DNA of 64,000 bases from Exiguobacterium sp. s124 (GTDB lineage: Bacteria; Bacillota; Bacilli; Exiguobacteriales; Exiguobacteriaceae): positions 1,116,001 to 1,180,000 of the forward strand of contig NZ_JACSKH010000001.1 in assembly GCF_018617485.1 (NCBI RefSeq), read 5' to 3'. This document shows, in pieces, positions 26,169 through 49,971 of the stretch (its first letter is position 1; each line of letters opens with the position of its first letter). The notes beneath the pieces are model-generated. The model made no database searches and was not told the DNA's origin. It saw only the letters and a list, made by a program, of their open reading frames with translations. The position numbers and the translations under genes were made by a program.

Positions 26169-29100
26169 GACCGGTTGAATTGAAGATTCAAGCATTCGGA
26201 CCGTATGCAGAACGTGAAACGATTGATTTTACGCAATTAGTGGGCAGATCGATGTTTGTCGTAAGTGGTCGCACGGGAGCAGGGAAGACTACTATCTTTG
26301 ATGCAATGACATTCGCCCTATATGGTCGAGCGAGTGGTGCGCTTCGAAATGCGAGTGATTTCAGAAGTCAATACGCTCAAGCTGAAATGAAGACGGAGGT
26401 CGACTTCTCGTTCACAATTCGTGGTGATCGCTATCGGATTGTGCGACAACCACAACAACCTCACCCTAAAAACAAAACACCCATCCCGCATGAGGCCGTT
26501 CTGTATGAATGGGAGGACGGTTGGAAGCCGGTAGCAACAAAAGTGAACGAGGTTCAAGAACAAATTGAGTCGATCCTACAATTATCGTATGAACAATTTA
26601 GCCAAATCTTGTTACTCCCTCAAAACCAATTTAGACAATTGCTCGACTCGAACTCAAATGAGAAGCAACAAATCTTGCAATCTATATTCAAAACAGAGGC
26701 GTATCGTGCTTTCCAAGAGCGATGGGCAGAACGTTTCAGTAGTTATCGGAAACAAGTTGAATGGGCGGTCGAACGAACACGACTCAAGTTACTCGAGCTC
26801 GAAGACGAAGCGATAGAGGATGTTTCGACAAAATCGATCGATGTGATCCATCACTGGCTGAATGAACGCGAACAACACTTGATCACAACAGCTGAGATGG
26901 CAGCAGACCAAAAACAAGTTCATTCGAAAACCTTTGAACAGGCTCGTGCCGAATTAGAACAAGCGAGAGCACTTGTCAGTTTATTTCAAGAACAACAAGA
27001 AACCGTGCAAGCCCTCAATCAATTTCTAAAAGGGGAGACAGAACGAAACGAACGTCACGAGCTGTTGCGGCATTTAGAAGCAGCCGCAACTATTCGTCCA
27101 GTCCATGATCGACTATTAGAAATGGAGAAACATGTTCTCCGTATGACGATAGAGGACGAAGCATCTTCTAAAAAGCTCGAACAATTACAACAAAAACAAT
27201 CTTCTTTATCGGAGCAACAAGTTGCGATTGAAGAGGACAAACAAAAAATCTTATCCCTTCAAGAGCGACTCCGTCTAATTGATGAGATGTTACCTCGAAT
27301 GAAAGAGCGAGCCGAACACGTAACTCATCGTGAGCAACTGACGAAGCGTGCGAAGGATTTAAGTACTTTCCCTAAAGAAGCGCGACTTCAAGAACTACAA
27401 GAGCGTGAGCGACATTTCGTTGAAACGTTGGCAATTGAACCAGAAGAACGTGCGATTGATGCAGAGCGATATGTCGACCGATTATTGTATTTGGATAAAC
27501 TTGAAACAAAGATGAACAAGTTATCGGATCAACTCGCCGCTTGTGAGCGGGACGGAAAAGAAGTACAGCGACTGCATGCCATTCAGCAAGAATTAATGAA
27601 TAAATATAAACAACAAGAACAGATGAATATGGCAAGACAACTAAGTGAAGCGTTGGAAGATGGCGAACCGTGCCCAGTATGTGGTTCGCGTCATCATGAT
27701 GTTCCACAGTTCGAAGAAGCAGTCGAGTATTTGGATGAAAGAGAATCCGCTATGACGCGACTTGAAGAACTGTCAACACGTCTGATTGAAGCGAGAGCCG
27801 ATTATCGTTCACTTCATCAACAGCTTGAAACGGTTCGAAGAGAATTTGACGAAGGGTTAAAGGACGTTCAAGTGGAATCGTCATTGACAGAAGAAATCAA
27901 AAAATGGCAAACGCATACGAATCGTCTACAACGTGAGGAGCGGACTCGTCTCGAGAATGAACGGACGTTGCGTCAACTAACCGGCGAAATGAGACAACTC
28001 GAAGAAGAGCGACGTAACCAGTTCGAAGAGCGTCAACGTGTTCTCGCAGAACTTGAAGCAACACAACAAAAGTTGAACGCGCTCGGTCAAACAGAGGAAG
28101 CAACGTTAGAAGGATTACAAACCGAACGGACGGAGCGACAAAATCTTCTCACGGCACTGACTAAAAAAGTCGAGTCGTTCAATCATGACTTCGAAATCGT
28201 CAAAAAAGAAACGTGGAAAGAGGAAGAACGGCTCACTTTGCTACGTCAACAACTCGTAGAGGCGAGAGGGCAATTTGATATACAAAGAACGATATGGAGT
28301 GAGCAGTTAGAAGCCGCTCGATTGACTCAGGAGCGATACGAACAACTTGCCAGTCGAATCGACCAGCGGACAAAGATGCAGGAAGACTTGCAACGTGAAG
28401 AAGAAGAAGGGATCCGGCTTCGACATCGTATTCAAATGATTGAGGAGAAACTAGGAACCGTAGAACGACCTGACTTGCAGTCGATTGAAATGAAGGTCAA
28501 TGAGGCCAAAGCGTTATACGAACGAGCGTCAGAACATTTCATTTCCTCACAAGATGCTTTATTTAGACATCGTCAAATCGTATCAGAGTGGCATGTACTT
28601 CGTGAGGAAACAGCGCGCGAAGAACAGAAGCTAGAGACCATCAAGTTGATTGCTGAAACCGGAAAGGGAATTAATCCTCAAAAGATGACGTTTGAGACAT
28701 ACGTACAAACGGCCTTTTTTGACCAAATCTTACATGCTGCAAATATTCATTTAGACCAGATGACAAGTGGTCAGTTCCGACTCGAACGCAAAGTAGAGAC
28801 GGCGAAAGGAAACGCAAAATCTGGACTGGAACTCCTTGTGTTTGATGCATATACCGGTCAATCACGGCGCGTTCAAAACCTTTCTGGAGGAGAAGGGTTT
28901 AAAGCGTCTCTCTCACTCGCACTCGGACTTGCGGAAGTGGTGCAACAATTGAGCGGGGGCGTCAGTCTCGAAACGATGCTCATCGATGAAGGATTCGGGA
29001 CGCTCGATGCCGAATCTTTAGACCAAGCGATTGAATTATTGATGTCTTTACAGGCGACCGGACGCCTTGTCGGGGTCATCAGTCATGTCCAGGAATTGAA

Positions 29101-47029: not shown

Positions 47030-47102
47030 TGGAGCATAGGGGGCTCGAACCCCTGACCTCTACGCTGCCAGCGTAGCGCTCTCCCAGCTGAGCTAATGCC
47101 CC
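47030..47102 (-). tRNA. tRNA-Ala (anticodon GGC)
   Basis: On the minus strand the 73-base sequence folds into a full cloverleaf: acceptor GGGGCAT/ATGCTCC with discriminator A, D-arm GCTCAGCTGGGAGAGC, anticodon arm CTACG-CTGGCAG-CGTAG with anticodon GGC, and T-arm with GGTTCGAGCCC. The CCA end is not encoded. A hairpin terminator follows eight bases downstream. Confidence 0.95.
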
Positions 47103-48299: not shown

Positions 48300-48722
48300 A
48301 TGGAATCAAATGTAGTGACGATCTCGACGCTTGTGGATACACCAATCGAAAAAGTCTGGGAACTCTGGACAGCCCCTGATCATATCAAACAATGGAATCA
48401 TGCATCTGAAGATTGGCATACGACCGAAGCGGAGAATGACTTACGCGTCGGTGGGAAGTTTCGCAGTCGGATGGAAGCAAAAGACAACAGTATGGGGTTC
48501 GATTTTGAAGGCGTGTATGAGGAAATTCAAGTGAACGAGATTATTCAATATCGCCTCGATGATGAACGGAGAGTGAGAATTTCATTCGCACCAGAAGGTG
48601 ATCAGACAAAGATTGTTGAAACGTTTGATGCGGACTCGATGAATCCGGTTGAGTTGCAACGTCAAGGATGGCAGGCAATCCTCGACAATTTCACTCGATA
48701 TGCGAATGAGAAGAATAAGTAA
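48300..48722 (+). CDS. SRPBCC/AHSA1-domain protein
   Basis: The 140-residue protein is a START-like (AHSA1/CalC) domain: VDTPIEKVWELWTAPDHIKQW (about 12-32), GGKFRSRM (about 54-61) and the C-terminal QRQGWQAILDNFTRY helix. Such proteins bind small hydrophobic ligands or act as Hsp90 activators; no specific role can be assigned. The ATG at 48300 follows AAAGGAG, and an upstream extension is not supported. Confidence 0.84.
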   Translation: MESNVVTISTLVDTPIEKVWELWTAPDHIKQWNHASEDWHTTEAENDLRVGGKFRSRMEAKDNSMGFDFEGVYEEIQVNEIIQYRLDDERRVRISFAPEGDQTKIVETFDADSMNPVELQRQGWQAILDNFTRYANEKNK

Positions 48723-48744
48723 GGTGATCGAGTAATCTAATAAT

Positions 48745-48782
48745 CAGCAGTATATATGATGAAGTTTACATGTATACTGCTG
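48745..48782. other. Inverted repeat after the SRPBCC gene
   Basis: CAGCAGTATA pairs with TATACTGCTG around 18 bases, 23 bases after the stop codon; only TTT follows on the plus strand, so it may be a weak terminator. Confidence 0.4.
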
Positions 48783-48984
48783 TTTGGCATGATAGCAATA
48801 AAAACCGCTTGTATATGTATATGTATATGTAGAGGATGTTATCTTTAGAATCGATCATGAACAACAAAATGAGATCGTTAAATCTAATACAGTGGCCCAA
48901 AAACTATGAAAAGTTGGATCATGCAATTCCGTAAGTAAATATGACAGGTGATGCAAAGAGTACATACATAAATACATTGTGAAA
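48783..48984. other. AT-rich stretch without a supported gene
   Basis: No open frame with a ribosome binding site. It contains three tandem TATATG units near 48811-48831 and a 25-codon frame at 48857 without a site. It is richer in A+T than the flanking genes. Confidence 0.5.
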
Positions 48985-49080
48985 TTAAGCAAACGCTTCA
49001 AACACAGGCATCATAAACGGAAGCGAAAACATCATAACGATCGAAAAAATAAAGGTTGCCATAAATCGTGAGAACTTCAT
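48985..49080 (-). CDS. 31-residue hydrophobic peptide, coupled to the 74-residue gene
   Basis: This short frame starts at ATG 49080, which overlaps the TGA stop of the upstream small gene (ATGA), and encodes 31 residues: MKFSRFMATFIFSIVMMFSL, then PFMMPVFEAFA. It is one membrane segment with a basic N-terminus, Met- and Phe-rich. Translational coupling and the single clean frame support it as a real gene; I recognise no family. It could be a membrane subunit or regulator of the partner, or a remnant of a longer protein. Confidence 0.55.
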   Translation of the reverse strand: MKFSRFMATFIFSIVMMFSLPFMMPVFEAFA

Positions 49081-49301
49081 TTTCTTCTCCACTTCAAAGA
49101 AATGGCAAAGGCAGTCAATCCTCCTATGACGACGACATAATAAACGGAATAGAAGACAAACTCTCCAATATCCTCAAAACTACTAAACGTATTTTCCATA
49201 ATCATTGGATCAGACAACATACCGATTGTCACAATCGGCAAAAAGAAGACCCAAAAACGTTTCCAAAAATACGTGCGGTACGACGACTCATTTGAAATCA
49301 C
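49077..49301 (-). CDS. Small two-helix membrane protein of unknown function
   Basis: A 74-residue protein with two predicted membrane segments (about 14-30 and 48-68) and a basic end (KWRRK). I recognise no family. The GTG at 49301 follows AGGAGGGG with six bases of spacing, a strong site. Its stop overlaps the start of the 31-residue peptide gene. Confidence 0.65.
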   Translation of the reverse strand: MISNESSYRTYFWKRFWVFFLPIVTIGMLSDPMIMENTFSSFEDIGEFVFYSVYYVVVIGGLTAFAISLKWRRK

Positions 49302-49403
49302 TAGTAGCCCCTCCTATCAGTTCCATACTTTACCATATTGTAACATGAACCTCTTATGAACAAATAGTTGAAATTTGGGTATTATACAATTTTTACTACA
49401 TGT

Positions 49404-49437
49404 AAAAACAGCGAGTGCATCACATGTACCCGCTGCT
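49404..49437 (-). terminator. Terminator of the DM13 gene
   Basis: CAGCGAGT pairs with ACCCGCTG (one mismatch) with TTTTT following on the minus strand. Confidence 0.6.
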
Positions 49438-49446
49438 TAATATTGA

Positions 49447-49971
49447 TTATTCACTCGTCGTGCTCAATTCACCCGTCCCGAACGTTGCACTAAAAGCACG
49501 ACACCAAATCACCACCGTGCTATATTCTGTCAAATCGACATCAGCCGGAACCAAATAGTTTTGATTTCCCGTGTTTCCCTTAAGTGCTCCGAGTCTAATC
49601 CCTTCAGACACTTCCACGCCTGGTTTCGTCAAATAAACAAACAAGTCAGGACCGTTCGTCGTCTCAAACTCTTCAAATCGCAGGTAAGTTCCGTCTTCTG
49701 CTTCAACTGAGCGAATCATACCGGTCGTCTCATAATTTTTCTCCCCGTCCATGAACACACCCGCTACTTCGGTTGGACTCGGTTGTGCTTCCGGTGTTTC
49801 GGACGTCTCTTGATCTGATTCCTCTTCCTCTGGAGCTGGTGATTCGACAGCTGTCGGTGGTAATCCTTCGTCGACCGTCTCGGTTAAAAATAGTGGAGAG
49901 ATGAGCCACCAGGCGATTGCGATGATGGCGATCCCGATGATCCCGATGATGATTTTTGTCCGAGTCTTCAT
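49447..49971 (-). CDS. DM13-domain membrane-anchored protein
   Basis: The 174-residue protein has an N-terminal anchor (about 6-26), a Glu/Pro/Ser-rich linker (about 40-68), and a DM13 domain (about 72-170): YLRFEEFETTNGPDLFVYL, GALKGNTGNQNYLVP, and VVIWCRAFSATFG with the single conserved Cys. DM13 domains are proposed to have a redox or electron-transfer role through this Cys. The ATG at 49971 follows AAAAGGAGG. The neighbouring msrA, upstream on the same strand but with its own terminator, also concerns oxidative damage. Confidence 0.85.
   Translation of the reverse strand: MKTRTKIIIGIIGIAIIAIAWWLISPLFLTETVDEGLPPTAVESPAPEEEESDQETSETPEAQPSPTEVAGVFMDGEKNYETTGMIRSVEAEDGTYLRFEEFETTNGPDLFVYLTKPGVEVSEGIRLGALKGNTGNQNYLVPADVDLTEYSTVVIWCRAFSATFGTGELSTTSE

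Follow-up and report, generated by a model that had tools for sequence, protein, structure and literature searches.

The closest described systems offer little to place either of the two small membrane-protein frames considered here, a 74-codon frame (gene 1) and a 31-codon frame (frame 2) overlapping its end. For gene 1, no Pfam model passes the cut-off, and the sole family listed, DUF805 (PF05656), had E 0.057 and fell short with 14.3 bits where 25.7 are required, and was listed at E 5 for none of five gene-1 homologues scanned. NCBIfam returned no listing for gene 1, and across the rest of its family it gave a scatter of models, none of them shared by more than three of 16 members (best E 4.7e-4). 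Comparison with the PDB gave gene 1 neither a sequence match nor a fold match, the query model being of moderate confidence, and PADLOC at E 0.1 assigned no family to gene 1, to one of its homologues or to two four-helix proteins. Frame 2 was likewise without a listing in Pfam; an earlier, preliminary description of this DNA had stated that neither product falls into a recognised family. Literature searches on Exiguobacterium small membrane proteins, pseudogenes and remnant coupled frames gave no title or abstract opening that dealt with gene 1 or frame 2. The nearest likenesses lie instead in two unnamed families, one of two-helix proteins occurring in Exiguobacterium, Sporosarcina, Bacillus niameyensis and Fredinandcohnia, and one of four-helix proteins in Bacilli, with about 128-131 residues and a YGxxxSxLS(E/D) motif.

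Both frames lie on the minus strand of the window (the whole stretch of 64,000 nucleotides that was analysed) and overlap as originally described, with 74 amino acids read from a GTG, 31 from an ATG, and a shared ATGA (49080-49077) in which the stop of gene 1 coincides with the start of frame 2. Gene 1 (49301..49077) is an intact frame according to the ORF list, its homologues, their alignment, hydropathy and a structural model, and the strong ribosome-binding site ascribed to it could be read directly as AGGAGG (49315-49310) 8 nt 5' of the GTG. Frame 2 (49080..48985), established from the ORF list, its translation and homology, ends in TAA; the ORF list has it begin at an upstream GTG (49092), and the ATG form was translated separately. 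Upstream of gene 1, and on the same strand, are a DM13-domain gene (49450-49971; Pfam E 2e-20) and an MsrA-like gene, the latter named by eye, while an AHSA1-domain gene (48300-48719; Pfam E 1.7e-24) faces gene 1 and frame 2 from the other side. A minus-strand hairpin followed by a T run (49408..49436) lies 3' of the DM13-domain gene; its fold has a z-score of -2.12, with five of 200 shuffles folding equally well, and it is absent from the list produced by a terminator scan. It is probably the terminator of the DM13-domain gene, and gene 1 would then belong to a separate transcript. For a known regulatory RNA of the sort that would accompany a small hydrophobic toxin or stress peptide, Rfam gave no match over 48700-49460 at E 1, a scan that an undescribed RNA would escape. 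The AT-rich character attributed to this patch was borne out by a GC content of 0.34-0.38 in the 500-base windows of 48500-49499, compared with 0.40-0.55 in the remaining windows of 45-53 kb. Elsewhere in the window, positions 47030-47102 (minus strand) encode a tRNA-Ala with anticodon GGC, and the ORFs of 35-69 codons listed there are by-products of that tRNA.

Gene 1 is clearly conserved among relatives of the source organism. Used as a single query it matched five of 18 other congeneric genomes (46-50% identity, E 3e-22 to 1e-19), and a six-member profile detected it, at E 0.01, in 26 of 37 other genomes of the source's family, a count in which three genomes (G006, G010 and G015) are doubtful, seem to carry another protein and were set aside. 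With a sixteen-member profile searched against 398 Bacilli, 24 genomes including the source were positive and every one belonged to the source's family, amounting to 23 of the 37 relatives there and none of the 360 other Bacilli sampled. An alignment query of the GTDB collection yielded 16 loci (10 from Exiguobacterium, four from Sporosarcina, and one each from Bacillus niameyensis and Fredinandcohnia quinoae), whereas a single-sequence scan of genome contigs with gene 1 found no relative. Across the family alignment FWKR is invariant close to the beginning, the loop is acidic and carries the motif EPxIxxNPFxxLEDYGEF, and a W stands near the end. The window's gene 1 resembles the other members in length, in its two hydrophobic segments, in the FWKR, in the acidic loop and in a W-R near the end, and it keeps 18 of the 21 columns that are invariant among the other 15 canonical members; it differs from them in its divergence, the highest of any canonical member (41-47% identity to the others, with a long branch), and in stopping a few residues earlier. 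Synonymous sites were saturated in comparisons with congeners. In E. qingdaonense (L003) the gene has a DM13-type gene on one side and on the other a gene named by eye as a RhaT-like transporter, and because genes of these two types also flank gene 1 in the window, where the AHSA1-domain gene additionally intervenes, the two copies occupy the same genomic site. Gene 1 is an intact, conserved member of an unnamed family of two-helix membrane proteins.

Several observations concern the wider family. Homologues of gene 1 are broken in G034 (contig 2, about 107954-108189; L051/L064), where the match runs across two frames, and in G035 (contig 1, about 1334407; L060), where an in-frame TGA interrupts it; the family seems dispensable in some species. 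Eight g2 genomes (L052-L059) carry a distinct sub-branch with FFWKRYFYVFFPLF...LEDIGEF, two aligned members of which share 28% identity with the window's gene 1. The three doubtful genomes mentioned above encode proteins of 82-84 residues (L061, L062 and L063) with a MEFHLPK start and an ELEDVG-like segment, which are borderline matches to the gene-1 profile at E about 1e-4.

Hydropathy agrees with the preliminary description in giving the 74-residue product two hydrophobic segments (residues 18-34 and 53-69), and it gives frame 2 a single one. The net charges of the 74-residue product, +2 at the N-terminus, -4 in the loop and +4 at the C-terminus, lead to the prediction that both ends are inside, and an AlphaFold model places helices at residues 5-29 and 45-73 (mean pLDDT 75, pTM 0.38). 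The product of gene 1 is thus predicted to cross the membrane as a small hairpin, its two ends on the inner side and its acidic loop outside. By eye, no constant neighbour was seen at seven gene-1 loci beyond the close clade, from which we infer that the protein works alone; at two of these seven, L033 and L035, similar hydrolase-like proteins are encoded upstream of gene 1, on strands that differ. As to function, it is possible, and we put it forward tentatively, that the product of gene 1, standing alone, assists or modulates a larger membrane protein.

Frame 2 behaves differently, and the searches with the two peptides gave divided results: whereas gene 1 had its matches among the congeners, the 31-residue query, at a threshold of E 10, matched none of the 18 other genomes of the genus and nothing in plasmid or phage records. 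Its one close intact relative is the protein encoded by a 128-codon gene on contig 46 of G342, a genome from another family of Bacilli. When this protein was compared by tblastn with the whole window, its residues 1-63 fell on 49080-48892 without a gap, Met1 on Met1, with 51% identity and E 3.9e-14, the next-best match in the window having E 0.06. The homology thus continues well beyond the end of frame 2, and the recognisable stretch of 63 codons (49080-48892, minus strand; free of indels by this comparison and by a reverse profile search) is interrupted by in-frame stops at codons 32 (TAA), 54 (TGA) and 59 (TAG). Past codon 63 no homology is recognisable, and residues 64-128 of the G342 protein have no counterpart recognisable to tblastn in the window. 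Each side of the first stop reveals the relationship by itself: the stub formed by frame 2 and the part following its stop, each compared alone with the G342 protein, gave scores that none of 5000 shuffles reached.

Comparisons within the genus point the same way. A 53-residue read-through of the locus, with X at the stop, matched four-helix proteins of 131 residues encoded by ten other genomes of the genus (E 1.8e-4 to 0.019), and a profile of these ten proteins (A3) had its top place in the source genome at the frame 2 locus, with three stops (E 9.7e-4). Against this profile the read-through scored 26.6 bits and codons 33-53 alone 15.8 bits, in each case with no equal among 20000 shuffles; the stub alone was weak, its 5.7 bits being equalled or bettered by 323 of 20000 shuffles. 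Codons 1-63 of the broken gene align with the four-helix family without a gap, and the locus departs from it in having three stops and an unrecognisable second half, and frame 2 lacks the intact frame of about 128-131 codons that characterises the family, which makes it a remnant and not a working member. We therefore interpret frame 2, on the strength of this homology, as the 5' end of a four-helix membrane-protein pseudogene and not as a micro-protein gene. Its start is a true gene start, given the homology to an intact longer protein, and the 31-residue peptide is the first helix of a former four-helix protein.

That frame 2 is instead a chance frame of a T-rich strand, never part of any gene, is an idea to which its length alone would be congenial: when the T-rich strand of this region was simulated with a first-order model, 24% of ATGA starts stayed open for at least 31 codons, and 6% both did so and contained a stretch at least as hydrophobic as that of frame 2, so that the length by itself is within chance. 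An ATGA without a known partner also terminates two of 17 distinct homologous gene-1 ends. Length and composition fit, but the gap-free match of 63 codons from Met1 and the failure of any shuffle to equal the stub's score against the G342 protein rule this origin out, and we assign it a vanishingly small probability.

The preliminary description suggested, besides decayed genes, a small membrane complex or a stress peptide pair. In a working pair of this kind the two-helix protein and a 31-residue one-helix partner would be made in a fixed ratio through the ATGA. The overlap, a GGAG at workable distance from the ATG and the hydrophobicity of both products are what such a pair would be expected to show, but the GGAG falls inside the W-R-x-K codons of gene 1 itself, which are conserved, and occurs at this position in nine of the 17 homologous gene-1 ends. 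Together with the restriction of the 31-residue frame to the source among the congeners and its absence from plasmid and phage records, and above all with a homology that runs past its stop, this leaves the proposed complex of two peptides without support, and we give very little credence to a working pair. A related idea, that the front end of the dead gene has been retained since the break as a useful short peptide, draws on the 31 codons still being open behind a start and a ribosome-site-like sequence. Here base identity to the G342 gene is informative, at 52 of 93 bases within the stub and 57 of 84 past its stop; the stub thus shows no sign of having been kept better than the dead part, and with an open length that chance alone can supply, retention of the peptide is highly unlikely.

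Finally, gene 1 and the stub might be pieces of one four-helix gene, or of two tandem copies, with gene 1 as a C-terminal half. Gene 1 does weakly resemble that half (7.6 bits; 35 residues at 29% identity by tblastn), but a profile-profile comparison of the families gave a probability of 0.2% and aligned a different part, and many genomes carry gene 1 as a conserved protein in its own right, of comparable length. We consider a common gene extremely improbable and did not retain gene 1 as half of the four-helix family, the resemblance being weak and the profile comparison unsupportive; of the two, frame 2 alone derives from a longer protein. For frame 2, the lack of matches among the congeners and its place in a longer protein answer to the grounds on which the preliminary description said that its reading would fall. 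The suggestion that the locus holds decayed genes accordingly stands for frame 2, a broken four-helix gene, and falls for gene 1, which is intact and conserved.

Intact relatives of the four-helix protein were found in ten congeners and, at E 1e-4, in 28 of the 159 genomes searched from G342's family; unlike the copy studied here, none of them adjoins gene 1 at the loci examined. Neither Pfam nor NCBIfam had a model above its cut-off for the members scanned. Longer intact relatives of about 155-160 residues, with the motif YGVxxSxxSDW, occur in the source genome (L109, contig 1, about 28939-29088) and in congeners (L104, L107 and L108), and those scanned again yielded no passing model from either database. 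A 'hypothetical protein' encoded on a plasmid of Planococcus maritimus (NZ_CP101820.1, 54805-55005; L160), near a tyrosine recombinase gene, is a weak four-helix match (35.8%, E 5e-3). Gene 1 had no match in the plasmid search, and a pattern and tblastn search of viral contigs found no relative of either family; cargo of phages or plasmids was set aside as an explanation, with this one weak four-helix match on a plasmid as the only hit.

As for how the locus arose, it very likely descends from an old arrangement of two genes in which the first survives and the second is the broken four-helix gene. In the ancestral state the start of gene 2 would have overlapped the stop of gene 1 in the ATGA, and gene 2 would have been translated by coupling to gene 1; it would then have decayed, acquiring three in-frame stops and losing its second half from recognition, with gene 1 alone remaining. 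Because Met1 of the G342 protein aligns with the ATG within the ATGA, this overlap is probably the true coupled start of gene 2, and a genuinely coupled pair of genes has probably left its trace at this one locus. Among 132 loci, adjacent matches to both families were confined to those of the source genome, and former coupling accordingly rests on a single locus; L030, which matches both profiles, was left out of the count because its four-helix match is weak (9.3 bits), about 3.5 kb off and on the opposite strand. In G342's family, a search for gene 1 gave three weak partial matches in 159 genomes, none of them convincing.

Import of the gene pair from another lineage, followed by decay of gene 2, would fit these data. 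In the gene-1 tree the window's copy has a branch of 1.02, compared with a median of 0.12, and lies apart from its syntenic congeners, in a topology whose bootstrap is unsettled and for which the tool warned that placement of the long row is unsure. Between the source genome (G000) and G009, third positions differed at 46 of 74 in gene 1 and 68 of 174 in the DM13-domain gene (p 0.0013), a count that includes amino-acid changes; at four-fold sites the figures were 8 of 12 and 36 of 79 (p 0.22), and this lack of a significant difference weakens the case for import. Fast change of gene 1 in place is a possible alternative. A more elaborate scenario, in which a coupled two-gene membrane complex of another lineage was imported into the gene 1 site and lost its second partner, with the 31-residue first helix maybe still made as a modulator of gene 1, we regard as a long shot.

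Altogether, the locus shows a gene decaying in an ordinary way next to a conserved small membrane-protein gene that has no name. It illustrates how a hydrophobic mini-frame, when it opens in an ATGA overlap and has a ribosome-site-like sequence before it, can mimic a new small-protein gene and yet be the front of a decayed one. The analysis also brought out two membrane-protein families of Bacilli that have no accepted Pfam or NCBIfam family in the scans made, and gene 1, being intact and conserved, is a suitable subject for work on small proteins.
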